43,772 bases of DNA, taken from Candidatus Nanopelagicales bacterium (lineage in GTDB: Bacteria; Actinomycetota; Actinomycetes; S36-B12). The notes under the pieces are model-generated. The model made no database searches. It was not told the DNA's origin and was given only the letters and a program-made list of their open reading frames with translations. The translations under genes were made by a program, and so were the position numbers. Positions 1 through 15,340 of the stretch are shown in pieces (position 1 is the stretch's first letter; every line of letters begins with the position of its first letter). The stretch is taken from positions 1 to 43,772 of the forward strand of contig JAQTXL010000004.1 in NCBI GenBank assembly GCA_028688835.1, read 5' to 3'.

Positions 1-1
1 C

Positions 2-457
2 CCCGCGCCGACTCCTGCCCCAGCACCCGTGCCTGCCGGTCCGTCCACGCGCACGATCTACGTCTGCCCGAGCGGATTCACCGACGCCGGATCGCTGTGC
101 AACAAGACCATGACCTACACGTTCCACTCAGTGACCACCACCAGCCCCTACAGCTACCACCAGCAGTTCATACAGACCGGCTCACACGTGAACTACTCCG
201 CCTCACCCAATGGCGGCACCTACTACGCCAAGGACAAGTGGAACCCCACTGACGGCAGCGCCGAGGGCTACTACGCCGTCATCCCTGACGGCTACTACGC
301 GACCGTGAAGGACGCACCTCCTGCCGGGTACACCGACAACGGCTCGGCCTACAGCAAGACCGAACTCGTCAAGGACACCGCTCCGGCCGGATACAGCGAC
401 AACGGCACCGCCTGGGTCACAACCGCGGCCAAGGTCGCCCAAGAAGTCCCCGCGTAG
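2..457 (+). CDS. C-terminal part of a Pro/Ala-linker surface or secreted-type protein with degenerate GY(T/S)DNG repeats (5' end outside window)
   Basis: Frame open from the window edge encoding PAPTPAPAPVPAG; repeats PSGFTDAGSLCNKT / PAGYTDNGSAYSKT / PAGYSDNGTAWVTT; stop at 457. Confidence 0.6.
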   Translation, partial: PAPTPAPAPVPAGPSTRTIYVCPSGFTDAGSLCNKTMTYTFHSVTTTSPYSYHQQFIQTGSHVNYSASPNGGTYYAKDKWNPTDGSAEGYYAVIPDGYYATVKDAPPAGYTDNGSAYSKTELVKDTAPAGYSDNGTAWVTTAAKVAQEVPA

Positions 458-514
458 TCGACAGACCCAACCTCAGTACGCCAACCGCTTCAACCTCACA
501 GACAAGGCACCGTC

Positions 515-1354
515 ATGCACAACCACGAACTGCAACCCCTGATCAACGACCCCGACCTGAGCACCACCGCAGCCGCCCGCGCCCTGCTGGCCCTGGCCAA
601 GAGCGTGTCGCGCGGCGACCCGGATATCGCCGGAGACGTCACCATCCTGCTCACCGAGCGCCTCAAACCAGGCGGATCCATCTATACCCGCCTTGGTACC
701 CACGCCAACCCCGCCGCCCTGCTGACCATCGCAGCCAAGAACGCCGCCGCCCAAGCCCACGAATCCGCCGGCCGCCACAAGCGCGTCATCCCCCTGACCG
801 ACGATGGGGACCTGGCCGCCATCGAACCAGCCCCATCCCCGTACTCCCCGACCTTCGGAATCTTCGACCTCCTCGGGGACCTCGGCTGGACGATGGCACA
901 CCTGGAGATGCTGGCCATCCCCCGCAAGCGACCCGGGCGCTGCGTGCACCCAGGCATCGAAGCCGCCCTGGAACGCGTCGCGACCTGCTTCGGGATCCCC
1001 GTGCGCTGCCCCGGCTGCCCTACCGACATGGAGCTGCTGCGCCTAGACCTGCGCGGCCCCACGTCCTGGCCCCACCTGGTGCCCGTGCTCCTGGAATGGG
1101 GCTGGGACCACGACGTCATCACCCTGATCACGACCTCGCCGGCCAATATCGCCCAGTGGCGCGACCTCGACATCCGACCACCGGCCCGCCAAGAGCGCCG
1201 CATGGTCGAAATCGCCCGCAAGATGCGCGTCGAACCATGGCTACTGCAGGACTCCCAAGCCATCCGCGACTCCGTGCGCAGCGCCCGCAGCACCGCACCC
1301 CGCATCCACATCCCCACACCCCAAGGGTGGGGAGCCTGCGAGAAGGCGTCGTAA
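515..1354 (+). CDS. Hypothetical protein (279 aa) of integrated-element backbone
   Basis: Long ORF with consistent C-ending codons, followed by another ORF on the same strand; no family recognised. Confidence 0.6.
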   Translation: MHNHELQPLINDPDLSTTAAARALLALAKSVSRGDPDIAGDVTILLTERLKPGGSIYTRLGTHANPAALLTIAAKNAAAQAHESAGRHKRVIPLTDDGDLAAIEPAPSPYSPTFGIFDLLGDLGWTMAHLEMLAIPRKRPGRCVHPGIEAALERVATCFGIPVRCPGCPTDMELLRLDLRGPTSWPHLVPVLLEWGWDHDVITLITTSPANIAQWRDLDIRPPARQERRMVEIARKMRVEPWLLQDSQAIRDSVRSARSTAPRIHIPTPQGWGACEKAS

Positions 1355-1424
1355 ATGCCAACTACCAAGGGGCTGGGGCCGTTGACAAGACAGCACCGTC
1401 AACTGGCCCCACCCGGAGGTACCC

Positions 1425-2231
1425 ATGACCAGCCACCCGCCCCACAGCACCCAACCGACCCCCATCGACGCACTCGACATCGTCAGCGCCCTGCGCAACT
1501 GCGACCCACATCAGCTGGCCGCGGCCCTGGCCCGCTGCCCCGACCCAGCCTTGACCCACCTGGCCCAAGCAGTCCTGGACGCCGCCACCCGCAAAGCCAG
1601 CTACCCTCCGGCACAAGTCATCGCCGAAGCCGACGCCCTGCTCTACCAAGTCCTATGCGCGCCCGTCGCCGACGCCAACCCCACCGGCATCACCATCGAC
1701 CCAGCCACCTACGCCCGACATACCGGCGCCAGCCTCGCCGAAGCCGAACGAGTCCTGCGGGACATCGCCATAGACGAATCCCAGGCCTGCGACCAACTGC
1801 TGGCCTCCGGCGTAGAGCCCAACTTCACGATCGAGCAAGCGCAGGTCCAGGACTGCATCAGCAAGCTGCGAGCGGAGGGACAGGTCCCTACTCGCCAGCT
1901 CGTTCGGGTCCATGCCACTGCCGTAGCTGTGTCCGCAATGCGCCCAGACGAGGGCGACCAACCGATCATCTACCCGCCAGATACAACGCTGAGCCCTCGA
2001 CTCGTGAGCCCATCGCCTAAAGTGCACGTCCTGCTGTGGCTGGACCGTATGGACGCCAACCCACCATCAGTCGGCATACTCGAGGAACGCATCGACTACC
2101 TGCGCAGCGCCAAGTACGCCATGGGCCGGGCAGCGAGAACAGTTGGCGAGATGGCACATCGTCCCGACGGCCTCAGTTCGGCGACATCCAATCTCAGGCC
2201 ATTCGAACCGCCATTTCAGCTGGCAGGTTGA
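1425..2231 (+). CDS. Hypothetical protein (268 aa) of integrated-element backbone
   Basis: ORF ends immediately before the excisionase-like start (TGAG ATG). Confidence 0.6.
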   Translation: MTSHPPHSTQPTPIDALDIVSALRNCDPHQLAAALARCPDPALTHLAQAVLDAATRKASYPPAQVIAEADALLYQVLCAPVADANPTGITIDPATYARHTGASLAEAERVLRDIAIDESQACDQLLASGVEPNFTIEQAQVQDCISKLRAEGQVPTRQLVRVHATAVAVSAMRPDEGDQPIIYPPDTTLSPRLVSPSPKVHVLLWLDRMDANPPSVGILEERIDYLRSAKYAMGRAARTVGEMAHRPDGLSSATSNLRPFEPPFQLAG

Positions 2232-2232
2232 G

Positions 2233-2451
2233 ATGACTGCTCCCACAACAGATACGAGTATCGACAGGCTTCTGACAATCGATCAAGCAGCGGAGATTCT
2301 GGCTGTCAACACACGCATGATTCGCCGACTAGTCGAGAGCCGACGCATCGCCTTCGTCAAAGTTGGTAGGCATGTGCGCTTCCGCGAGTGCGACCTGATG
2401 TCGTCCGTGCAGGCTTGGACAATTCAACCTGCCGGCAGAGCACGCCAGTAA
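2233..2451 (+). CDS. Excisionase-family / MerR-like helix-turn-helix DNA-binding protein
   Basis: LLTIDQAAEILAVNTRMIRRLVESRRIAFVKVGRHVRFRECDL matches the excisionase-family HTH pattern; ATG at 2233. Confidence 0.8.
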   Translation: MTAPTTDTSIDRLLTIDQAAEILAVNTRMIRRLVESRRIAFVKVGRHVRFRECDLMSSVQAWTIQPAGRARQ

Positions 2452-2584
2452 GTCCACCGGTTGCCCACGATGTAGAAACGGGGGGGTTCCTCCAGCACTG
2501 CGGTGCGTTCATCATTGCTGGTGATGGGCTGCCGGTAGGCGCAGTGTGCATGGTGAATTCAAGTAGGGGGCGCCAACAAATGAG

Positions 2585-2767
2585 ATGTTCCTGACCATCG
2601 AGCAGGCTACAGGGGTCGTCGCCTTGAATGAGCGAATGGTGCGCCGTCGCGTGGAAGAGCGACGCCTCGCGTTCGTCGACGTTGGACGACGTGTGCGCTT
2701 CAGGGAGTCGGATTGAGCGGAGGCGATGCGGGCCTGGACGATCCAGCCTGCGGCACGCGGGCGCTGA
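2585..2767 (+). pseudogene. Second excisionase-family HTH copy, interrupted by an in-frame TGA at 2714-2716
   Basis: Translation MFLTIEQATGVVALNERMVRRRVEERRLAFVDVGRRVRFRESD*AEAMRAWTIQPAARGR*; homology to the upstream gene continues past the stop (AWTIQPA). Confidence 0.8.
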
Positions 2768-3018
2768 GCATCTTCCGTGGCTGAACCGGCCGGCAGGATC
2801 CAGTTCAGGAAGGTGGATCATGACTGTGGACGCATCCATTGCTGCTTCGGGCGCGGGAGAAGTCCATCCTCCATTTCAAGTGTGTGCCGCCGTGCCGACG
2901 CGAAACTCCCCGAATCATGTAGCTCCCAGGGCCGCGACAGTCGAGGCGAGTTCTCTCCGTCGCAGGCGCGAGGAAGAATATGGCCCGGCTCCATCCTCCG
3001 TGACGCTACGCTCGCAGG

Positions 3019-3807
3019 GTGACCCGAGTGAGACCCCGCGCGCGCGTCGCGTCCGGGCAAGAGAAGGTGGTCATCGCTCGCAGTGGAAACCGCTGCGCTT
3101 ACCCCGACTGTCGTGCCGAACTCGTCTTTGACGCCGACGCCGAGGGCGACCAGCCAAAGGTCGTCGGCAAGGTGGCGCACATCGCTGCAGCTAGTCCGGG
3201 TGGTCCGAGGTATGACGCCTCGATGACGGATGCTCAACGCAGCTCAGCCGAGAACCTCATCTACTTGTGCGGGCCGCATCACGACGCCGTCGACTCGCAA
3301 CTAGACAAACACACGGTCAAGTATCTGCATGACGCCAAGGTCACGCACGAGTCGGCAGTCGCTCGGGCGGTAAAGAACGCTCTCGGAAACGTGACCTTCG
3401 AGGAACTTGGTGTGATCTGCGGGGCCATCTCAAGCGCACCCGACCCAAGCCAGGCCACAACAGTCGAACTCGCGCTACCCATCCAGGACAAGATCACGCT
3501 GAACGAGCTCGGGGCGGTGAGCGCGGAACGCATCTCAGCGGGTCTTTCCCAGGCCTCGCGCGTTGCTGAGTTTATTGCCTTCCAGCAACAGACCTCGTCG
3601 AACTTCGGCCGCAGACTCGTCAGTTCCTTCAAAGCCGAGTACTTCGCCGCAGAGGCCGAGGGCCTCGATGCCGACGGCATCTTTGACAGCCTGGTACTCA
3701 CCGCCTACGACAACTCAGGTCCCCGTCAGACGCCTACAGTGGAGGCAGCTGCTCTAGCAGTCGTCGCTTACCTATTCGAGATTTGTGAGATCTTCCGCCG
3801 TGAGTGA
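3019..3807 (+). CDS. HNH endonuclease-domain protein, putative effector of an ABC-3C system
   Basis: CAYPDC ... VAHIAAASPGGPRYDASMTDAQRSSAENLIYLCGPHHDAVD is an HNH motif; about 170-aa C-terminal extension; start codon uncertain (GTG at 3019). Confidence 0.8.
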   Translation: MTRVRPRARVASGQEKVVIARSGNRCAYPDCRAELVFDADAEGDQPKVVGKVAHIAAASPGGPRYDASMTDAQRSSAENLIYLCGPHHDAVDSQLDKHTVKYLHDAKVTHESAVARAVKNALGNVTFEELGVICGAISSAPDPSQATTVELALPIQDKITLNELGAVSAERISAGLSQASRVAEFIAFQQQTSSNFGRRLVSSFKAEYFAAEAEGLDADGIFDSLVLTAYDNSGPRQTPTVEAAALAVVAYLFEICEIFRRE

Positions 3808-4030
3808 CCTCTACCCCGACAAGTTCACGCCTATCGAGCGAACAGTGGTGGGCGAGAGCGCCTTGCTCCTCGGTCTGCTCCGGGGGCGCGCCATCAGCAT
3901 CGGGCAGCTTTTCGTCGAATTCCGCGACGTCGCGCCGACGACCACATATGACGCCTTTGCTCTGGCACTCACATTCCTTTACGGCGCGGGAGCAGTCACG
4001 CATCGAGATCAGATCGTGACCGTGCCCTGA
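3800..4030 (+). CDS. Small middle component of an ABC-3C-like system (MC6-like)
   Basis: Starts GTG at 3800 overlapping the HNH stop; VSDLYPDKFTPIERTVVGESALLLGLL...; stop overlaps next ATG (TGATG). Confidence 0.6.
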   Translation: MSDLYPDKFTPIERTVVGESALLLGLLRGRAISIGQLFVEFRDVAPTTTYDAFALALTFLYGAGAVTHRDQIVTVP

Positions 4031-5757
4031 TGCTCCTCCGCATCTCGACCAACAAGGAGGAGTTCAAGCCGATTGACTTCAAGCCCGGCTTCAATGCCAT
4101 CGTGGCGGAGCGCGCTACGGATTCGACTGATCAACACAGCCGGAACGCCCGAGGGAAATCAACACTACTCATGCTGGTGAACTACGCACTCGCGGGCAAC
4201 CTAAACAGCGCTCTTCGTCCGCTTGCCGCAGACGGCTGGGAAGTGAGCCTTGGTCTTGAGATGTTCGGTGGTCAAGTAACGGCGACTCGCGCACTCGCTC
4301 GTGGCACGAAGCTCAGGATCGACGCTACCGGCCCCGCGAACGAGGTCATGCGACCGTACCTCTCCGAGGGGCAGATCTCGGTCGCAGATTGGAAGGACCT
4401 ACTCGGTCTCGCGCTGTTCCGCCTCGAGCCCGCCGAACAAGAGATGACAAGCGGACTATCCGCGCGCACATTGCTTTCTTATGTCATTCGAACAGAGCCC
4501 TCTAAGGACCCCCTAAAGATCGTGGCGCAACAGTCAGCGACGAGTAGTCGCGAGCACGTCTCCTACCTGCTCGACTTGGATTGGACGGTCGTGCACGAAC
4601 TGGCCGGGATCAAGACTGGACTAGAGCAGCTCAAGCAGATTAGGGCGGCGGCTAGCGATGGGCTCATGTCGACGTTGCGGCCTGAAGCCGACCTGCTGCT
4701 GGAACGTGCCGCTCTAAAGGGTGAGCTCGACGAATGGGAGGATCGGATCTCTGGTTTCCGTGTGCTCGAAGACCCGAACTCGCTCGTCATCCGAGCCGAT
4801 GAACTGACGGCAAGCATCTCGGTGCTGAGGGACGAAGCTGTGGTGGATCAAAGAATGCGACAACTCTATCGGGCATCGCTCGATGAAACCCCGAACGGTC
4901 TATCCGTTCAGACAGCCTCGGTCGAAGACCTCATTTCCGACGCTGGGCTTGTACTTGCGGAAGGGTTCATCCGCCAGGCCGAAGACGTTCGTGATTTCCA
5001 TGCCGAGCTACTGAGGAACAGGCGCGCCTACCTCCACTCAGAGGTAGAACGACTCAACGCCCGGATCGCGGAACAAGCAGATGAGCTGGCCCGCCTCGAC
5101 TTGCAACGCGATGCCCTGCTCCGAACGCTTCAGGCGGGTGGCGCCCTAGAGGAACTCGATGCGATGAGGAGTGAACTTAGCGGAGTTCAGTCGCGCATCG
5201 CGGCGGTCGACCAACAGATCGAGCAGGCCCGCGAAATCGCGTCGCGCAAGGAACAGCTCAAGCACGCCCGATCGACCAAGCGAACAGAAGCTGCAGGGGA
5301 ACTCAGCCAGTCGCGAGCCAAATTGGATCGTGTCAGCGAGCGGCTCAGTCTGAAGATGAAGCAGCTTTACGGGCACGAGGCCGCTCTGACCGTAGAGGTT
5401 GACGACATGGGCTTCAAGTTCAAGCTCACCACGGCCCGAGCCGGAAGTAGCGCCGTAGACCGCATGATGATGTTCTGCTTTGACCTGACAATGCTCGAAG
5501 AGGGCGTCACGACTGAGCACCACCCCGACTTTCTCATCCACGACTCAACCGTCTTCGACGGTGTTGACCCGCGGCAGCGTGCCAGCGCGCTGCGATTCTC
5601 CCAGCAGATGGTCGAGGCAACCGGCGGGCAGTACATCTGCACGATCAACAGCAACGATGTTCCGGGGGAAGTGCTTGATCAGCAGTGGTTCAAGGACGGC
5701 GTCGTGCGCACGATCCTCGATACCGAGGCCGGTGGATTGCTTGGACGGGAGTTCTAG
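4030..5757 (+). CDS. DUF2326-type ABC ATPase with coiled coil (ABC-3C ATPase)
   Basis: Walker A-like NARGKSTLL near N-terminus, long helical middle, C-terminal HHPDFLIHDSTVFDGVDPRQ Walker B-like segment. Confidence 0.8.
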   Translation: MLLRISTNKEEFKPIDFKPGFNAIVAERATDSTDQHSRNARGKSTLLMLVNYALAGNLNSALRPLAADGWEVSLGLEMFGGQVTATRALARGTKLRIDATGPANEVMRPYLSEGQISVADWKDLLGLALFRLEPAEQEMTSGLSARTLLSYVIRTEPSKDPLKIVAQQSATSSREHVSYLLDLDWTVVHELAGIKTGLEQLKQIRAAASDGLMSTLRPEADLLLERAALKGELDEWEDRISGFRVLEDPNSLVIRADELTASISVLRDEAVVDQRMRQLYRASLDETPNGLSVQTASVEDLISDAGLVLAEGFIRQAEDVRDFHAELLRNRRAYLHSEVERLNARIAEQADELARLDLQRDALLRTLQAGGALEELDAMRSELSGVQSRIAAVDQQIEQAREIASRKEQLKHARSTKRTEAAGELSQSRAKLDRVSERLSLKMKQLYGHEAALTVEVDDMGFKFKLTTARAGSSAVDRMMMFCFDLTMLEEGVTTEHHPDFLIHDSTVFDGVDPRQRASALRFSQQMVEATGGQYICTINSNDVPGEVLDQQWFKDGVVRTILDTEAGGLLGREF

Positions 5758-6183
5758 GACCGCCTCGCCCCGGCCCGCTGGTTTCGCGTATTGAAGTCGA
5801 ACCTCCCACCAGCCTCACCACGCTGCCCCAGACCAACCGGCAGTGCCACTTGCTCAGGCGGCCAGGAGCCTGCGTGAAATAGGCACGCCTTGCTGCGCAT
5901 CCGTCGACTGGCCTTCCACTATGCGAACGTCTGTGGCTCGAAAGGGAGTTCAGTCGTGCACTGGGCGTGCAATATTGAGGAGGCGAGACGGCGCCAGAGG
6001 AGTTGATGCCTCAGTCCGCGCCGTGCCCGCTCGAGCCGGTTCTCTCAAGAACTCCCCTACATCCCTGTGAGGTTCTCCGGCCTTTGGTTCCTCCAATGGC
6101 TTGCGGACTGTTCGCTTGCTCGATGAGCCGACATGTAGGTCTTCGAACTACTCCGCGTTCAAAGAGTCTCGCGGCTGGTTTGG

Positions 6184-6882
6184 CTACTCTGTATCTGACG
6201 AGGGCTGATCGGGAATCCACTCGAGGCATTCAGGGCACTTCTTCGCCACAAGTGGAATTTGAGAGGCACAGGCTGGGCACGCTTTCTTCCTAGACCTGAA
6301 TAGGCCGTCCATTCGATTGGATGAAACTCGACTTCGTTCAATATTGGCGAGTTCCTTAATGCTTGAAGCGATGGCCTCACCAGGATCCGTAAACGATGCG
6401 AAGAGCACGCCACGAAGTGACGTCATGTTGATCGTGAAGCTCTCTGAGTACCTTCTTCCTTCGCCGGAGTATGCCAAGTCGAAGGTCAGCGCGACGTGGT
6501 CACCGTCTGGCCTGTCGAATACTTCCTCGCGAGGAAGAAGTACCTGATATCGGTATCGCCGACCCGGCGCCAAGTAGGACACGCCGTTGGCAATGCCAGT
6601 GACCGCCTGCACTTCAGCCGCCAACTCGGCAGATCCGACCACAGTTGCAGTGATCGTGATTCCTTGGGCTGCACGTTCACCGTCATTCCCAATGACAAGT
6701 TCGGCTCGTCCCGTACCCTCCGCCCGAAAGTCGATGAAGGCGTAAGGGCGCCTTGATTCAAGGGCACTCCTGGCCATGTTCCTGGTCAGCAATGCGTACC
6801 AGCCGGTGATGAACACGAGTACGAGTGAGCTGATCAGCTGCAGACTTCCAGCGTGCGCGTCGAGGTAGTCCATATTGCGCAA
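6184..6882 (-). CDS. Membrane-anchored protein with C-terminal zinc ribbon (alternative ATG at 6873)
   Basis: N-terminal hydrophobic helix LQLISSLVLVFITGWYALL; C-terminal CPACASQIPLVAKKCPECLEWIP. Confidence 0.65.
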   Translation of the reverse strand: MRNMDYLDAHAGSLQLISSLVLVFITGWYALLTRNMARSALESRRPYAFIDFRAEGTGRAELVIGNDGERAAQGITITATVVGSAELAAEVQAVTGIANGVSYLAPGRRYRYQVLLPREEVFDRPDGDHVALTFDLAYSGEGRRYSESFTINMTSLRGVLFASFTDPGEAIASSIKELANIERSRVSSNRMDGLFRSRKKACPACASQIPLVAKKCPECLEWIPDQPSSDTE

Positions 6883-6922
6883 GGTAGCGAACGACCCTGA
6901 CAGCGTGGACAGTCGCTGTGCG

Positions 6923-8218
6923 CTACTGAGCTAGCGCGGACGCAGCTCGGTAGCCAGAAATCGCTGCATTCCAGTCGAAGTCCAGTACGAGTTGGGATTC
7001 CGCCGATACTTCCTCGGCGCTTTGCTCAAGCGCAGTCAGCGTACGGTCGCGGATCGAAGTGACGCGATCAATCGCGTAGTCGGTCGGAATGCCCAGGAGC
7101 TCGGCGACCACTCGCCAGTCGTCGTTGGCTACACGGACAAATGCGTCACTCTTGCCGAGAATGAACGAGGCGTGCAATTTGCGGACCGAGTCGAATCGCT
7201 TGCCCCAGGGCCGGGTGAAGGGCAATGCACTGTTCAGGTCATAGAGCGGAGCCAGGAGCGCGTCAGGGCCGGACAGAAGCAGGGAGAAATTGCGCGCATG
7301 GCCATCGGTGCCGGCGATTGCGTAGTTGAACGCCAGACCATCGAAGAGTCGTTGCGCTGACGATTGACGAAGGTGTGCCGGCAGCCTTCGCAGCAGTGAG
7401 CCGATCTGCCTGATCCCTGGCCCACCGTCTCGTTCGTACTTCTGCCACGCCGGGTAGCCCAGTGCCTGGCACAGGTCCTCCTGATGAATCCGCTGGACCT
7501 GTCCTTCGGCGGATGTCAGCCTGTCGTAGCGAACGACAACCGCAGCATGCGTGCCGTCCACAAGCGGCTGAAGCCACGCTGCTGCAGTACTCAGTCCAAG
7601 ACGGCGGGCAGCCCGCAGGCAGATGACTTCGAAGGCGTCGAACTGCTCGAACCCTGGGATTGCGGGCTTGACGATGTGGGTTGTCGGAACTGCGCCAAAC
7701 GGGATGCCCCACAGCCCATCCGCGTAGGCAAGGGCAATCTTGGCCTGCGCGCCGGCCAGTGACCACTGGCCATGCTGTGACAGCGGCAGTCCACCCGCTG
7801 CGGCCGATCGACGCAGGTCTGCGATCCGCTCCGCAAACTCGACCTCGCTCAGCCGATCGACACCGCCGTTGCTCGGCAGTCCCTGGCCGACCGGGACCAC
7901 GCAGACGGCTCCCGGCAAGTCACGGCCGACGTACTCCAACAGCCCCATGACATTTGAGCGCGAGACGCCGGACTCGAGTTCGATGCGCTCACGCGCTGCA
8001 CCCTGCTCTGGCAAGAGTGCTTCGAAGAAGTTGGTGACGGCTCCCTGCAAGTGCTCGGCTCTTGCGAGGGGAATCGACAGCGACAGCGGAGTCGCGTCGA
8101 TGGCATCTCGGTAGTGCGCGTCATACTCGAACTCGAGTGCGCGCCCATCGGGTGCGCGCAGCCGCCCAGCGAGGCGCTCCCCCAGCCAGACATCGAGTCC
8201 ATGGTCAGTGACACTCAT
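6923..8218 (-). CDS. hipA: HipA-family serine/threonine kinase toxin
   Basis: GAVCVVP; WSLAGAQAKIAL; HIVKPAI; HQEDLCQALG; DGLAFNYAIAGTDGHARNFSLLL; APLYDLNS, all typical HipA motifs. Confidence 0.92.
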   Translation of the reverse strand: MSVTDHGLDVWLGERLAGRLRAPDGRALEFEYDAHYRDAIDATPLSLSIPLARAEHLQGAVTNFFEALLPEQGAARERIELESGVSRSNVMGLLEYVGRDLPGAVCVVPVGQGLPSNGGVDRLSEVEFAERIADLRRSAAAGGLPLSQHGQWSLAGAQAKIALAYADGLWGIPFGAVPTTHIVKPAIPGFEQFDAFEVICLRAARRLGLSTAAAWLQPLVDGTHAAVVVRYDRLTSAEGQVQRIHQEDLCQALGYPAWQKYERDGGPGIRQIGSLLRRLPAHLRQSSAQRLFDGLAFNYAIAGTDGHARNFSLLLSGPDALLAPLYDLNSALPFTRPWGKRFDSVRKLHASFILGKSDAFVRVANDDWRVVAELLGIPTDYAIDRVTSIRDRTLTALEQSAEEVSAESQLVLDFDWNAAISGYRAASALAQ

Positions 8219-8475
8219 GCTGAGCCCTCGTGCGCCCTCACCACAGAAGCCAGATCCACCGGAACACGGCGAGGCTCGATAGCTGTCACCAGTCCAAGCG
8301 CAGCCATGACGTCCAGCACCTTCGCAACTTCCACTCGACCTGAGCCGCGTTCAAGGCGATTCACGAGGTCACGGCTGACACCTGCCTTGGCGGCAAGTTG
8401 AGCCTGAGTCCAGCCCCGCTCCCCACGGACACTACGGACGGCACCCGCGACATCATCAACAGTGGCAATGCGCAC
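8215..8475 (-). CDS. hipB: HipB-family antitoxin, XRE HTH (GTG start)
   Basis: RGERGWTQAQLAAKAGVSRDLVNRLERG HTH; 4-bp overlap with hipA start. Confidence 0.85.
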   Translation of the reverse strand: MRIATVDDVAGAVRSVRGERGWTQAQLAAKAGVSRDLVNRLERGSGRVEVAKVLDVMAALGLVTAIEPRRVPVDLASVVRAHEGSA

Positions 8476-8487
8476 AGCACCTCCAAG

Positions 8488-8589
8488 TGTCGGCGTTCGC
8501 CGACATTTTAGCACATGTCGGCGCTCGCCGACAATCGGTTCCCTGTCGGCGCTCGCCGACATCTGAGACTCTATCGGCGTTCGCCGACA
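8488..8589 (+). promoter_or_regulatory. Four-copy palindromic operator array upstream of hipB (18-bp sites at 8488, 8516, 8544, 8572)
   Basis: TGTCGGCG-YT-CGCCGACA repeated with exact 28-bp period; fourth copy has one changed base (TATCGGCG). Confidence 0.85.
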
Positions 8590-8775
8590 CCCGCACTCAG
8601 AACCGGGCGCGAAGGAACCCTGGCTATGCCGGAAGGAAGGTGCATCCACCTCCTCGTCGAGTTCCACTCATGCATATGGTTCGTCAGCCCGCATCAGTCA
8701 ATGATGACGAGAAGTCGGAACTGGCCCTTGTCCAGACCACCGCCGACGAGCCTCCAGTAGACGGGAAGCAACACG

Positions 8776-9138
8776 ATGAACTTGACATGGCTAGAGGCCG
8801 GCGCAGCGGCCTGCCTCATAGTCGGGCTGCTACTGATTGTTGTCGCCGCAGTATGGGCATACCGACGCTTCGGCGCGAGGAAGACGGAGTTGGATCTTCG
8901 GCTCAGTAGCTTCTGGGCGGAGGAGGCATCCGCAAAAGCGGACGATCGACCGTTCGATGAGCATGCATATGCCGATATCACGGCAACCTATGCCGATCTT
9001 CGCGTTCTCCGCGCGACCACCCTCAGTGCTTTGCTCGATGACGCGCGTCAGAGCGCCAAAGGTGGTCCAGCCCTTTTGGCGCTTCTCGGGATCGTCCTGC
9101 AGACAGCCGGAGGCATTGCGCCACTGATGAGCGGATAG
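8776..9138 (+). CDS. Small single-pass membrane protein, unknown function
   Basis: N-terminal hydrophobic helix AACLIVGLLLIVVAAVWAYRRF followed by a soluble helical region and a second hydrophobic stretch. Confidence 0.55.
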   Translation: MNLTWLEAGAAACLIVGLLLIVVAAVWAYRRFGARKTELDLRLSSFWAEEASAKADDRPFDEHAYADITATYADLRVLRATTLSALLDDARQSAKGGPALLALLGIVLQTAGGIAPLMSG

Positions 9139-9259
9139 ACGGGCAGAGGTACCGAGAGTCGCGCCAGGACTCCCCCGCTGGGCAGCCGCGTCTCCCGATG
9201 CTGAGACATCGTCGTTCAATACATCGGGTAACCACGTCCACTCAATTGCGGCGAAGTGC

Positions 9260-9371
9260 GTGCGATACCCGTGCGATAAGGCCCTGAGGCACACACCAGA
9301 CAGAAGGCTTCCAAGACGTGCGTAAAGCCTTACACGAGAACAAGAATCCCCCGTGCGATAGTCGTGCGATA
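9260..9371 (+). repeat. Two pairs of GTGCGATA octamers (9260/9271 and 9353/9364), putative arm-type recombinase sites
   Basis: Octamers 11 bp apart within a pair, pairs 93 bp apart; same layout at 15069-15180. Confidence 0.7.
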
Positions 9372-9422
9372 GCGAGAGGGCTTGAACGGGGTCTGACGGT
9401 GAATCAGGCGGGCATATGAAAA

Positions 9423-9455
9423 GCGGATACCCCTTGCATTCCAAGGGGTATCCGC
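9423..9455 (-). terminator. Hairpin terminator, 14-bp stem and 5-nt loop, T-rich tract on minus strand
   Basis: GCGGATACCCCTTG-cattc-CAAGGGGTATCCGC; minus strand continues CTTTTCATAT. Confidence 0.75.
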
Positions 9456-9456
9456 A

Positions 9457-9502
9457 GTGGGGCGGGCGGGGCTCGAACCCGCGACGACCAGATTATGAGT
9501 CC
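9457..9502 (-). repeat. 46-bp tRNA-Met 3' fragment (att-type duplication; internal att site)
   Basis: Identical to 15266-15311 (gtggggcgggcggggctcgaacccgcgacgaccagattatgagtcc); 5' half of the tRNA absent. Confidence 0.9.
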
Positions 9503-9639
9503 TGTAGTGCCCGCTCACGCCTTCTCGAGCCCGCTCGAACCCACGCGATCGCCGGTAACTAGGACAAGAGTCACCTGACTTGTGCACTCGCTTCACCTGT
9601 TAGAAGTAGATCGCAACGACAATGCTCAGCGTGAGGGAA

Positions 9640-12600
9640 TCAGCCAGCAAATTCATCAATTGGGTCTGTACTTGAATCAAGCCAACCGGCCGCCGCGGGG
9701 ATTCCCCCCTGTATTGCTCGATCAACCAGAATTTGAACGGCGTCAGGCCCTTGCTGCTTTCGAAGCCTTCGAACTATGGGGCCTACCTCGTAGCCCAACC
9801 ACTGCGGATTTTCAACGTGTGAGAGCAAGTGAGCCATGAGTTCAATTGTTCCTAGTGGATGGCGTTCGGGGTGCGTGGAGCTCTCGAGACGACGAAGTAC
9901 TGATGAATGGTTGCCGAGTTTGAAGTCTCTCCTGACGACTAGATCTACGGCATGCTCAAATTCTTGATCCAATGCCGCTAGCCACGAGGCCGCGATGCAC
10001 CAATCAGGGTCCGAGACAGTGATAGGGAGGCCACGCGAGAGGTCGCGCGTGAATTGGCACAACCAACGAGTCCATATTTGGTCAGACTTGGCACCGTCTT
10101 CGTAGTCGAGGTAGTGCTCCACTGCAGACATGGCGAACGGCACTTGATCCGGCTGAATCTTTGAAAGAATGCTGGATAGGTATTCGGTTGAGCCAGTTCC
10201 ATTCGAATTTGGCGCGTCAGCGATCGACACAACAAGTCCGAAGAATTGACGCTGCAATCGTTTGTCGAGCTGATTGACACAAGCCGAGAAGCTCAGGGTT
10301 GCGTCCGCGTAGCCACGATCAATCATTCGAAGGTTCACGCGTGGGTGGTAGAGATGGCCTTCCCAGAAATGGCGTCCGCCCCCTTCAGCTGACTCCATGC
10401 TGCGAAATACATGGTCTGCTATCAAGTCCTCATAGGCATGGAATAGGAATGCGAGCTCTGCACCCATGGCGGCACGCGGCCCCGCAAGACGCTCATCCAT
10501 GCTGCCAGCGATCATGGAGAATCGCTCACCACACTCAAGCACGAGTGCATTCTGGGGATCGTCCTGACGAATCTGACTTGTCAGGTGGATCCAGAACTGC
10601 GTTAGGACTCCCGGCCAGGAGTTCAGTGCTTCAAACATCGCGTCCACAGCGCTTGAACCCGAGAAGGAATCGATCCTCGAGTCCCACAAGCGGCACGACA
10701 ACGCGAATGCACTATTGCGCGCTGCCGCTGGGATCAAGTCTTCCGAGCCGCGAACGCCTCGGAGCAGCAGGGAACTCAATGCGCGTTCAATTCCATTGAA
10801 ATCCGACCAGCTACTAATGGCTGCGAGCAGCGATTCCCACGGGAGTTCTAGATCTGATTCTCGCCAGCCACTGAGCACTGCAGATGCCAATTGCTCTAGC
10901 TGAGGGGAGCTGCATTGCCCTAGGGCCAGGTTCCATATTCCAATTCCTTTGCCTGGAGATCGGCCAACTGCTCCTGCGACCTGGGCCACGCCGTCATCCC
11001 ATGATGGTTTATCGCTCCAATGGTCGCCGTACTCGACGGCGAGCAGCTTCCGAATAGCTGCGACTGGATCGTCGGCTAGCTCTGCATCGAACTTAGCCTC
11101 ATCGAAGGGTGGGCGTGGTTCAACCCAGCCGCCGCTGGTAAAGGAGTCGAGGTCTGGGTGTTCGCCAATCTCCCAAATTGCGTGCGCAGCCTGTAACGGC
11201 GCTAAGGCAGAAGCAGCTTCGGCCCAACTTGCGTCGGCCGCCAGGAGCCAGTTCAGCAGGTCGTAGCGTTTGCGGTCTGCGTACTTTGGGTCAATAGGCG
11301 TGTCCAAAGCAGCAGCCAACAAAAGTCTTCTCGTTTCGACTGATGCCTGCTCCAATGACTCGCGGATCAGAAGGAAGACTTCATGCTTCAGTCCATACTC
11401 ATAAAGGAGTCCTTCAGACAACACAAGCCTTATGCGCTCGTCAACGTCTTCATGTGTGAGGAGCATTCCCCAAAGCGCGAGTCGCTTGAACAGGAGAAGG
11501 TCAGTCGACAGCCACCTTTCCACAATTGCGGCTGCAGCCTGCTTGTCACTGGCGGCGATGGATGCAAGTGAGTCTCGGACGGAGTCAATAATTGCGTCAG
11601 CGATTTCGCGATGCTCGTCCTGCGCATGTGGCTCGATTGCAGAGCGCCTGAAATTGATTGGATCAAAGGCGGAGTCACCCTGTTGATACGCGGAGTAAAG
11701 TTCACACGCCCCTTTGAGCGCATGCTCCCCGATCTCGAGCAGGTATGGCGCTGCCTCTGAGAGGTTGGGCTGAAGTTCGCTGGCCCAAACGTCTTCCACT
11801 GCGAAGTCACGAGTTGGCCATGAGATCGTCGACGATGGCCAGGCTCCTTCCTCGAAGCCGCCTAGACCGAATCGGTTTTCCAACTCAAGTCTCGGCTGCA
11901 GGGCAGTGCGCCAAAGGAGAAGCAACGCTCTCCTATGATCTTTCCATTTAGCTGAATGTAGGAGTATTCCAAGGAATGCGCCGACAGCGAACATATCCAC
12001 GGGTTGCGACAAGAGGACTGCGACCCATCGCTCATAGGTCTCGTTCGGTCCATCCTTTGCCTGTCGAGCTACGGCACTTGCCAATGCTGACCAAAGATGT
12101 GGAGACAACCCAGGTCGGCGCTTGAGTTCGTTTAGGGCTATGCGCTCGGCCGCAGGTGAACTGAGCGCTGCATCTGCAAACCAGTAGGCGAGTTGTATCC
12201 AGGTGCCATCTTCAGACGTGTCTGTCCAGTTGTGCTTGAAGGCATCACTGGTAGCAAGCCACTCAATCCAATCTGCTTGTGACGCGAATTCGCGGAATGC
12301 TTCTGAACCGTCCACGCTGTGGATAGCGCGGGCCAGATATTCCAGCTCTGAGAGTTCCGCAGTAGGAGGGCCAGACACAATCCTTTTCACTCGCTCGCGG
12401 CGAGCGAGCCCGCCTTCAGACACTATCTGGGCCCAAGCCTCCAGCGCCTGCGTCAGTTCAGAGTGCAACCCGTCCTCGTTGGGATACGCAATTGGCGCAA
12501 TATCGAGTCGGCCCCAGAGATCGTCATCGGGTTCGTCTGTAAGCACGTACCGACCCTGAGCACCGCGCAGACCTACGGCGAGATAGTCCATGACGGTGTC

Positions 12601-13278
12601 TCGGTGGCTATAGCCAACGAACAGCACGACCAAGTCACGAAACATTGGAAACAAGAAGCGAGCAGCCCATGCCTCTGTGAGGTAGGACACCCCAAGGTCT
12701 GCATCTGTGAGCACCATTTCTTCGATGCGGCCTACTGCCGAGCCGTGCAATTGAACAAGCCCGCTGAAGCTTCCCCCTAGCGGCAAAGCTGGACCCACAT
12801 ATTTGCCCACATTCGAAACACCAGCATCACCCAAAGCACTTGATAGGTGATCGTCGAAGTTTGTTGTCACGATGCGGAACGTCGGACAAGCTGAAGCTAT
12901 CTCGACTAAAGCACGATGATTGATGTTCGGCCTCGAATCAGGATTGGCAAGTACTTCGGCCACCAGGTCATATACGGGCGCACCCTGTTTTTGCAGATGC
13001 CCCAACAGTGCATCGGGGCGAGTCTCAAACTGCTTCATTACTTCTTCGCTGGTATTTCGCCGGTTGGCGATCCCTCGGGCTAGACCCTCGAACGACGGCA
13101 GGTTCGCGGGCGCGCTCATCGAGACGCCCGCACCGACGAACAGCACAAGGCGACCTTCTGCATGGGCGTCTAGGACTGCATCCGGCAATTCGACCTTGCC
13201 TGTGATGTGCACCTCTCCTCTGTCCTCTCCCCTATTCCCAGACCTCGTCCTTACTCCGCGCCTTGCCTCACTCGTCAA
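9640..13278 (-). CDS. Large SIR2-domain protein (up to 1212 aa), candidate NADase-type anti-phage protein; start uncertain
   Basis: RLVLFVGAGVSMSAPANLPSF, VTTNFDDHL, VQLHGS, LFVGYSHRD are SIR2 fold motifs; long helical C-terminal region. Confidence 0.85.
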   Translation of the reverse strand: MTSEARRGVRTRSGNRGEDRGEVHITGKVELPDAVLDAHAEGRLVLFVGAGVSMSAPANLPSFEGLARGIANRRNTSEEVMKQFETRPDALLGHLQKQGAPVYDLVAEVLANPDSRPNINHRALVEIASACPTFRIVTTNFDDHLSSALGDAGVSNVGKYVGPALPLGGSFSGLVQLHGSAVGRIEEMVLTDADLGVSYLTEAWAARFLFPMFRDLVVLFVGYSHRDTVMDYLAVGLRGAQGRYVLTDEPDDDLWGRLDIAPIAYPNEDGLHSELTQALEAWAQIVSEGGLARRERVKRIVSGPPTAELSELEYLARAIHSVDGSEAFREFASQADWIEWLATSDAFKHNWTDTSEDGTWIQLAYWFADAALSSPAAERIALNELKRRPGLSPHLWSALASAVARQAKDGPNETYERWVAVLLSQPVDMFAVGAFLGILLHSAKWKDHRRALLLLWRTALQPRLELENRFGLGGFEEGAWPSSTISWPTRDFAVEDVWASELQPNLSEAAPYLLEIGEHALKGACELYSAYQQGDSAFDPINFRRSAIEPHAQDEHREIADAIIDSVRDSLASIAASDKQAAAAIVERWLSTDLLLFKRLALWGMLLTHEDVDERIRLVLSEGLLYEYGLKHEVFLLIRESLEQASVETRRLLLAAALDTPIDPKYADRKRYDLLNWLLAADASWAEAASALAPLQAAHAIWEIGEHPDLDSFTSGGWVEPRPPFDEAKFDAELADDPVAAIRKLLAVEYGDHWSDKPSWDDGVAQVAGAVGRSPGKGIGIWNLALGQCSSPQLEQLASAVLSGWRESDLELPWESLLAAISSWSDFNGIERALSSLLLRGVRGSEDLIPAAARNSAFALSCRLWDSRIDSFSGSSAVDAMFEALNSWPGVLTQFWIHLTSQIRQDDPQNALVLECGERFSMIAGSMDERLAGPRAAMGAELAFLFHAYEDLIADHVFRSMESAEGGGRHFWEGHLYHPRVNLRMIDRGYADATLSFSACVNQLDKRLQRQFFGLVVSIADAPNSNGTGSTEYLSSILSKIQPDQVPFAMSAVEHYLDYEDGAKSDQIWTRWLCQFTRDLSRGLPITVSDPDWCIAASWLAALDQEFEHAVDLVVRRDFKLGNHSSVLRRLESSTHPERHPLGTIELMAHLLSHVENPQWLGYEVGPIVRRLRKQQGPDAVQILVDRAIQGGIPAAAGWLDSSTDPIDEFAG

Positions 13279-13407
13279 GGATTCAGACTATGTCTACAGT
13301 CGCAAGTGAAGAAACTTGGAATCTCTATTGACGCCCATAGTCGTTGGTTCCAGAACCTCCACCCTCTTACAACTCCTGGACCATGACATAGCAGCGTGAG
13401 TTCGGCG

Positions 13408-14679
13408 CTAAATCAGTCTGTCGGGTACCGGCCTCACCGGTCGTTCCGAGCGAGTGTCACCGCTCGCCGTGGCCAGCGACCTCTCGTACTTTGTCAGCAG
13501 CGCGAACACATCCCGAGCTTCAAAGAGTCGGTTGCGCGCAACACTGCCCGTCGACGTGAGCACACCTGCATCGACCAGGCGCGTCACCGCCGTGTTGGCT
13601 GCCTGGAAACTCACGCCTGTCAGCAATGCCAGATCGTCAACGGTGACTACCGGATGCGTGAGCAAGACGGTTAACGCGCGCTCTGCTGCGCTGCCCCGTC
13701 GCGAAGTCACGGCCACTCGCCACCGCGACTCAAGCGCAGCGAGGTCGTTGCTCAGTCGGCCCGCGTCCGCAACTGCTCGACGGGTCGCGGTAATGAACAC
13801 TTCGAGCCATCTCGAATAGGCCTCGCCAGCGGTCTTGGTGCCTGGTGCGCCGACGTATCTGAAGGAAGTAAGCCCGCGGATGTAGCCGCTGCTGTTGGTC
13901 GCAAGCGCCAGACTGACCGGCGGCACGAAAGCCGTAGCCGCATTGCGACGTCGAAGAACAACGTGAATCAGTGCACGCCCAGTGCGCCCGTTGCCATCGG
14001 CGAAGGGGTGGATCGTCTCAAACTGAGCATGGACCAGACCGGCTTGAACTACCGCTGGCATATCGTCGCGGTTGATGAAGGCACACAGATCGTTGAGCAG
14101 CGGTTCGACGAATTCAGGTGGCGGTGGGACGTAGTCGGCATCGCAAGGGTTGAAGTTGTTCCCCCCGAGCCAGTTCTGTGTCGCTCGGACGACCCCACCC
14201 AGTTCAGGCGTAGGCGACCTGTCCATCAGTGCACGATGCAGCGCAAGGACATGATCGACATTTACTGTGGGCACCTTGGCAATGTCGCCGACTGCCATCC
14301 GCATCGCCTCAATATTGCCCAGGACGGAGTCGGCCGTCTCGTCCCGAGAGAGCTCACCGTGGGCCATCATCGCCTCATGTCTGGCTAGACGTCGTGAGCC
14401 GATCGCGAGACCTTCTATCTTCGACGAAGCCACTGCCTCCGCTCGGAGGAGGAATCGGGCCAGCTGCTCGAGATCGCCACTCGCCGTAGCCTTCGCGTCG
14501 AAGGATGCAAGCGCCACTTCGGCATCGACGAGGTCTGCAGCGAGGTTGCTATCAAGTTCTAGGGTCGCGGCTGCCAACTCGTCGGGGACATACGCTTGGT
14601 ATCGGCACGGTCGGCGCGACTTGCGCGAGCCGTAGGCATCGGGAGACCCCTCCCAGAGGGATTCGACGAGTCGAGACAT
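13408..14679 (-). CDS. Fic-domain protein with N-terminal inhibitory helix and C-terminal winged HTH (upstream TTG at 14706 also open)
   Basis: HPFADGNGRTGR Fic motif; SSKIEG inhibitory motif; C-terminal TVDDLALLTGVSFQAANTAVTRLVDAGVL wHTH; GGAG 8 nt before ATG. Confidence 0.9.
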   Translation of the reverse strand: MSRLVESLWEGSPDAYGSRKSRRPCRYQAYVPDELAAATLELDSNLAADLVDAEVALASFDAKATASGDLEQLARFLLRAEAVASSKIEGLAIGSRRLARHEAMMAHGELSRDETADSVLGNIEAMRMAVGDIAKVPTVNVDHVLALHRALMDRSPTPELGGVVRATQNWLGGNNFNPCDADYVPPPPEFVEPLLNDLCAFINRDDMPAVVQAGLVHAQFETIHPFADGNGRTGRALIHVVLRRRNAATAFVPPVSLALATNSSGYIRGLTSFRYVGAPGTKTAGEAYSRWLEVFITATRRAVADAGRLSNDLAALESRWRVAVTSRRGSAAERALTVLLTHPVVTVDDLALLTGVSFQAANTAVTRLVDAGVLTSTGSVARNRLFEARDVFALLTKYERSLATASGDTRSERPVRPVPDRLI

Positions 14680-14698
14680 CCTTGAAGCTCCAATCTTC

Positions 14699-14751
14699 TT
14701 ATTCAAGTTTACATCACTAACCTTGAATAAGAAGCATTTTCATTCAAGGTT
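14699..14751. promoter_or_regulatory. Inverted-repeat half-sites upstream of fic
   Basis: TTATTCAAG (14699-14707), CTTGAATAA (14722-14730), ATTCAAGGTT (14742-14751). Confidence 0.6.
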
Positions 14752-15068
14752 GCTGAGCCACAGATGCGCCCCTACAGCGAACTCACCCGAAGCCCAGGAG
14801 GAGAAGGCCCTGACGGCCCAACTGGCAATTGACGGCCCGGGACGACCCTCCTGTCCTATGCCGACAGCTTTCGACGATTCGTGCGAGTCAGGTGGAGGCA
14901 ACCCCCACCCAACGTGAGGCCTTCAGCTCCAATGACGTCCATAGCCACTTCCGTTTAGGTACTCCGGTCTGATGACCGAGCTAGCTTCGCACCAACCTAA
15001 GGGGCTGCTAATGAGCCTCAAGTTCCAGAATCGTCCAGCTATTCGTCCGATTTCTTGCCACAGTTTGC

Positions 15069-15180
15069 GTGCGATAGTCGTGCGATAAGACCTCCGAGCG
15101 TCTACAGCCCAAAATGCCACCCCAAGGCCCAGGATGTGTTTCAGGAGAACGAGAAACCGACGTGCGATAGTCGTGCGATA
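15069..15180 (+). repeat. Two pairs of GTGCGATA octamers (15069/15080 and 15162/15173), putative arm-type recombinase sites
   Basis: 11-bp intra-pair and 93-bp inter-pair spacing, same as at 9260-9371. Confidence 0.7.
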
Positions 15181-15232
15181 GTGAGAGGGCTTGAACGGGG
15201 TCTAACGGTGCGACACACTGGCAATAGAAATA

Positions 15233-15263
15233 CGAAAACCCCTTGATTTGCAAGGGGTTTTCG
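15233..15263 (-). terminator. tRNA-Met terminator hairpin, 13-bp stem and 5-nt loop
   Basis: CGAAAACCCCTTG-atttg-CAAGGGGTTTTCG directly 3' of the tRNA. Confidence 0.75.
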
Positions 15264-15266
15264 CTG

Positions 15267-15340
15267 TGGGGCGGGCGGGGCTCGAACCCGCGACGACCAG
15301 ATTATGAGTCCGGGGCTCTCACCAGCTGAGCTACCGCCCC
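15267..15340 (-). tRNA. tRNA-Met (anticodon CAT)
   Basis: GGGGCGGTAGCTCAGCTGGTGAGAGCCCCGGACTCATAATCTGGTCGTCGCGGGTTCGAGCCCCGCCCGCCCCA folds as cloverleaf; anticodon loop CTCATAA; CCA not encoded. Confidence 0.95.

Follow-up and report, generated by a model that had tools for sequence, protein, structure and literature searches.

Two tandem elements at a tRNA-Met gene

The window analysed here, 43,772 nucleotides of DNA from a Candidatus Nanopelagicales bacterium, is an entire contig (C75) of a 2.3-Mb draft genome. An intact tRNA-Met (CAT) gene was called at 15266-15340 on the minus strand, and its 3' part (15266-15311) recurs with 100% identity at 9457-9502. This displaced copy, an att core that extends up to the anticodon loop, marks the boundary between element 1 (1-9456), the left end of which falls off the contig, and element 2 (9503-15265), a complete core-to-core cassette of 5.8 kb. 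The chromosome to the right has a GC content of about 0.70, element 2 one of 0.56-0.61. Left of the tRNA gene, GC drops from about 0.70 to 0.56-0.67, and this drop supports a foreign origin of the DNA, as judged from base composition.

Element 1 encodes a 72-residue helix-turn-helix protein of the excisionase family (2233-2451, plus strand), with matches to HTH_17, TIGR01764 (excise) and a PHROG excisionase. A second, truncated copy of the excisionase-like sequence (FLTIEQATGVVALNERMVRRRVEERRLAFVDVGRRVRFRESD) lies shortly downstream, at 2585-2716. Upstream of the intact copy, two neighbouring open reading frames (279 and 268 aa, 515-2231) had no Pfam or PHROG matches and are possibly replication or regulation genes of the element. 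Two further genes on the plus strand encode candidate defence proteins, one PDC-M68A-like (CTD10; 3019-3807) and the other a PDC-M68B-like ATPase (DUF2326; 4030-5757). On the minus strand are a HipA-like kinase, the toxin of a HipAB pair (6923-8218), and its HipB-like helix-turn-helix partner (8215-8667). A plasmid search with an element 1 protein gave no match. Element 2 carries, both on the minus strand, a 1212-residue SIR2-domain protein that is Dsr1-like in its N-terminal part (9640-13278) and a SoFic-like Fic-domain protein (13408-14706), the gene for which is 85% identical at the nucleotide level to DNA lying behind an integrase in a genome of the same genus (L117).

We found no integrase gene in the window with either Pfam or an iterated tyrosine integrase HMM, a search that covered the whole of element 2 and the visible part of element 1. 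The draft genome itself, in which the left flank of the array stops at a contig end (C49) with an assembly gap at the left junction, yielded just two tyrosine recombinases, both XerC/XerD-like, and no cognate integrase. Element 2 (9457-15266) has att sites at both ends and neither integrase nor transfer genes, and in this it is CIME-like. Two other identities were considered and rejected. From the set of int, xis, replication and TraB-like transfer genes of an AICE (pSAM2-like), only a xis-like gene was present among the scanned ORFs, with the left end of element 1 missing. An integron or CALIN is not compatible with boundaries that are tRNA-Met fragments rather than attC sites, and the window holds no integrase.

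Inverted repeats adjoin both cores, one at 9424-9456 (GCGGATACCCC...GGGGTATCCGC) and the other beside the 3' end of the tRNA gene at 15233-15263 (CGAAAACCCC...GGGGTTTTCG). The pairing is kept between the two and the sequence is different, and comparable hairpins of differing sequence occur at other junctions. Each element therefore seems to supply its own probable transcription terminator to the tRNA gene.

Paired octamers with a fixed geometry at both cores

An earlier note on this DNA had described paired octamers at set distances from the two cores, and its pairing and its 11-, 93- and 104-bp spacings were all confirmed. The octamer GTGCGATA occurs in eight exact copies in the window, all on the plus strand and each within one of four pairs (9260/9271, 9353/9364, 15069/15080 and 15162/15173). 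Octamer starts are 11 bp apart within a pair, outer and inner pairs are 93 bp apart, and the inner pair starts 104 bp before the core at both junctions (9353 to 9457 and 15162 to 15266). At the right end of element 1, the outer pair (9260-9278, GTGCGATA-CCC-GTGCGATA) lies 197 bp from the core and is followed by the inner pair (9353-9371, GTGCGATA-GTC-GTGCGATA); at the right end of element 2, the outer pair (15069-15087) is again 197 bp from the core, and the inner pair occupies 15162-15180.

Chance or a simple repeat was considered as an explanation. Only 0.65 octamers are expected by chance in the window (maximum over 100 shuffles, 3), and the four exact GTGCGATA-N3-GTGCGATA pairs compare with 0.25 expected even when up to 3 mismatches are allowed. 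In addition, the pair was not found in the rest of the draft genome, even at 2 mismatches. These statistics, together with the recurrence of the pair at the same position in other genera (below), refute this explanation, to which we assign a negligible probability.

The earlier observation that the intervening sequence has diverged at constant spacing also held. Between inner pair and core the two junctions are 75% identical; the figure falls to 51% in the stretch separating the two pairs and to 29% immediately upstream of the outer one. On sequence grounds, the junctions are homologous copies of each other, which makes their equal spacing weak, non-independent evidence, and we sought independent junctions elsewhere.

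Homologous junctions in the family

tRNA-Met cores were collected across the 85 genomes of the family; 76 junctions were read, and 69 pre-core regions were scored for repeat spacing. Exact GTGCGATA pairs were present in six other genomes of the 85, belonging to two further genera. The inner pair was at -103/-104 relative to the tRNA-Met core in G016, G019, G082, G083 and G084, and only some genomes had the outer pair as well (-198 in G019, -197 in G084). Other tRNA-Met junctions had pairs of another octamer, again with an 11-bp period: GTGCACCA pairs at -104, GTGCAATA pairs mostly at -104, GTGCCA[CT]T-type pairs (GTGCCATT/GTGCCACT) at about -106 or -158, and GTTAGAY-type pairs at -69 (GTTAGATC) or -91 (GTTAGATA/GTTAGACA). 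Both octamers of a pair change together between elements, that is, they switch in concert. A near-identical octamer repeat at spacing 11 was found in 27 of the 69 pre-core regions, compared with about 4 at most other spacings and 11-12 at the highest of them (10, 15 and 18).

Therefore, octamer pairs are neither missing from homologous junctions nor freely variable in their spacing, since other genera keep 11-bp pairs, mostly at -103/-104. The spacing that the earlier note called exactly conserved is so in both window copies but is not absolute elsewhere, as GTGCAATA pairs were also found at -94 and -116 in two genomes, about one helical turn away. A class-wide pattern search for armed tRNA-Met junctions beyond the family returned one match.

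Octamer pairs beside integrases and other tRNA genes

The exact GTGCGATA pair was found at 40 loci, 21 of them actinobacterial, in a scan of 85,462 species genomes. A tRNA T-arm motif was located within 250 bp of the pair in 15 of the 21 actinobacterial loci, where 8% of random positions have one, and in 2 of the 19 others. The strict T-arm motif overlooks partial tRNAs at several further actinobacterial loci. The actinobacterial pairs cluster by tRNA 3' ends (Met, Arg, Lys, Ala, Val and Thr), often near tyrosine integrase genes. In four loci, at tRNA-Arg or tRNA-Lys, the pair is directly upstream of integrases that have a GFGYIRKLPSGRYQAS-like N-terminus in common (L039, from Propioniciclava tarda, and L043, L049 and L051; the integrases of L043 and L049 are partly truncated). 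A viral contig (L029) has a tRNA-like core with GTGCGATA pairs on either side, which start 96 bp ahead of the beginning of the core and 65 bp past it, and an integrase gene adjoins.

The arrangement is not peculiar to this octamer. Upstream of 32 independent actinobacterial phage integrases, an exact 7-mer repeat at spacing 11 was found in 17, and any other spacing in at most 5; the octamers vary from integrase to integrase. Likewise, GTGCCA pairs lie upstream of int for the GTGCCA-type tRNA-Met integrases of G062, G005 and G054, and in G005 and G062 such pairs are also at the tRNA-Met end, which places the motif on both sides of the element. Among viral relatives of the GTGCGATA-class integrase (41 loci), the 32 checked had no GTGCGATA pair at up to 2 mismatches. 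No viral relatives of the tRNA-Met GTGCCA-class integrase were found, and a tRNA-Met core search of viral contigs gave one match.

A further possibility is that the octamers act as operators or promoters, for instance of tRNA-Met or of genes of the elements. Five viral contigs (L023, L025, L028, L030 and L032), some of them gammaproteobacterial-looking, have GTGCGATA-N3-GTGCGATA ahead of phage genes, within sequence resembling a TTGACG...TATATT promoter. This context makes an operator function of the pair in unrelated phages probable, and the octamer alone is consequently no proof of an arm site. The pair directly upstream of int in some actinobacteria could likewise reflect autoregulation of int. 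In the window, however, the pairs are downstream of the tRNA gene and no gene starts at a fixed distance from them, and tRNA-Met genes of the same genus without an adjoining element have no octamer pair. We therefore regard a regulatory role at these junctions as highly improbable.

The earlier note had left open whether the octamers are sites for a recombinase or an excisionase. Tandem direct repeats spaced by about a turn are common excisionase targets, and element 1 encodes a protein of this family, so the pairs might be binding sites of a recombination directionality factor, such as the product of 2233-2451, rather than of an integrase. Excisionase sites are usually on one side of the core, whereas the pairs are on both sides in the GTGCCA elements and in the viral contig L029, as arm sites are. 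Moreover, element 2 has identical sites but no such gene, and the same octamer accompanies integrases with a common N-terminus at different tRNAs. The two-sided occurrence in particular makes the excisionase reading less likely than integrase arm-type sites, and we judge it unlikely. The recombinase half of the earlier proposal was supported by the 11-bp pairs at junctions, the association with integrases and tRNA genes, and the two-sided arrangement in L029; the excisionase half fits less well.

The octamer pairs are thus, with good probability, arm-type binding sites of a two-handed (lambda/L5) tyrosine integrase. This reading follows from sites that are repeated, paired one turn apart and placed at preferred distances from the core, that lie on both sides in intact elements, and that go with the integrase and not with the tRNA. 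As with arm sites generally, the short repeats sit on element arms beside a core shared with the chromosome. The two arms of an attP are seen in the GTGCCA-type elements and in L029, whereas the window elements show one arm only, and the other side of the core had no enriched octamer pairs in integrase-less cassettes. It follows that the sites in such cassettes may be incomplete or relics. A cognate integrase, which usually accompanies arm-type sites without being strictly defining, is encoded beside this octamer in other actinobacteria and is missing from element 2 and from the visible part of element 1.

Tandem cassettes without an integrase

In many genomes of the family, tRNA-Met cores are arranged in tandem and in uniform orientation. 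A tyrosine recombinase was undetected in 21 of the 23 complete core-to-core segments, which have a median size of 2.1 kb and carry AbiE toxin-antitoxin pairs, HipA and helix-turn-helix genes, among others. When cassettes of different genera were compared, homology began exactly at the core in many comparisons and ended at the core end in others. Furthermore, G084 and G082 have an AbiE cassette (91%) and the next cassette (92%) in common and differ by one core-to-core cassette of 1,655 bp, which holds a decayed integrase and GTGCGATA arms. Homology breaks exactly at cores and this one-cassette difference indicate that the cassettes are discrete units.

The decayed integrase of G084 is the only one inside a GTGCGATA-armed tRNA-Met cassette. 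Its cassette (3354-4418 of L083, contig C67) has cores at both sides and no gene other than the integrase, which resembles the GTGCCA-type enzymes and has a 38-residue in-frame gap relative to its relatives and HALRH in place of HDLRH. In none of the 85 family genomes did we find an intact integrase that combines GTGCGATA arms with a tRNA-Met core, and no integrase with the GTGCGATA-class N-terminus was found at tRNA-Met; the best match, in G065, lay in a region with neither a GTGCGATA pair nor a tRNA-Met core.

It is conceivable that the cassettes are dead remnants left by integrase deletion and that the octamers persist only through recent common descent. This possibility is compatible with an arm-type identity of the sites, as it concerns present activity. 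It accords with the scarcity of integrases in complete segments, the damage to the G084 enzyme and the failure to find an intact cognate enzyme in the family. On the other hand, the octamers are perfect at both window junctions, whose flanking sequence is down to 29-51% identity. Homologous cassettes also occur across genera and break exactly at cores, and one insertion or deletion of a cassette is precise. We consider complete inactivity possible but rather doubtful.

Retention of arm sites in a complete cassette without an integrase suggests instead that such defence cassettes, having kept their docking sites, are moved by an integrase supplied from elsewhere. For the window cassettes, we consider mobilisation in trans slightly more likely than not.

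A model for movement in trans

We infer the binding of an integrase to these sites, the bending of the DNA into an intasome and the mobilisation in trans. Elements 1 and 2 are tandem tRNA-Met insertions. Two N-terminal arm-binding domains would sit next to each other on each octamer pair, separated by one helical turn, and the catalytic domains would cut the tRNA-Met core in the anticodon-loop region, 104 bp (here also 197 bp) from the arms. There is one arm block per element, at the tRNA-proximal end, so that excision or insertion would keep the block with its element. The integrase of another element, reading the same core and GTGCGATA arms, could then mobilise the cassettes in trans, or they might move jointly by accretion.

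More tentatively, the tRNA-Met gene of this family could be an integron-like cassette-capture locus. Its short cassettes without an integrase, many of them bearing toxin-antitoxin or defence genes, would each have a one-sided octamer-pair address, one turn apart within the pair and about ten turns from the core, that picks the helper integrase, and different octamers would be different addresses within one shared array.

Similar arrangements have been described in part. In cluster J mycobacteriophages, putative arm-type sites were reported as direct-repeat pairs flanking the core (PMC3706429). In that group and the L5 group, as here, short pairs flank a tRNA common core and belong with related tyrosine integrases that have an N-terminal arm-binding domain; repeats are also found at the int start, with about 100 bp from core to int. 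The octamer here is GTGCGATA, whereas theirs has a TGCATAC-like consensus, and in the present elements the pairs are at one end only and int is absent. Tandem islands bounded by copies of an RNA gene 3' end are also known at ssrA in Dehalococcoides; an integration module is missing from 15 of the 31, which were put forward as cis-mobilisable (PMC3146451). Those islands have a Ccr-like recombinase at tmRNA, whereas a tyrosine integrase is implied here and the integrase-less cassettes keep arm sites. According to the excerpted account of the additive flexible genomic islands of Methylopumilus (PMC10872708), these have repeated tRNA-Lys ends, and tycheposons, which have a tyrosine recombinase, likewise begin at tRNA-Met. 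They resemble the present arrays in their occurrence in freshwater bacteria, repeated tRNA 3' ends and variable cargo. The lineage is different, that excerpt does not mention paired arm sites, and, compared with the islands it describes, the cassettes here are short, several of them with toxin-antitoxin or defence cargo. Finally, CALINs are integron cassette arrays without an integrase (PMC11389934). They too have a recombination site for each cassette and are thought to move in trans, but the cores here are tRNA-Met fragments with arm-type sites rather than attC, with no integron integrase. The paired arm addresses retained by integrase-less cassettes are, as far as the literature that we searched shows, the new part.

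These sites offer a sequence-level handle on the possible movement of integrase-less defence cassettes. As the octamer names the integrase class depended on, helper-cassette pairs become predictable, and whether integrase-less tandem tRNA islands are dead or mobilised in trans becomes directly testable. Arm sites of actinobacterial integrases can also be annotated by a simple rule, namely an octamer pair spaced by 11 bp in the neighbourhood of an integrase or tRNA end.

Two further observations were made on the arrays of the family. Long tandem tRNA-Met arrays in G064, G042 and G073 (L166, L170 and L172) each contain three or four complete integrase-less segments, the shortest below 1 kb. In G019, two intact tRNA-Met genes are about 20 kb apart on one contig (C24, at 4833 and 24726), the second with GTGCGATA arms, and the intervening DNA may represent an element with a complete tRNA gene.
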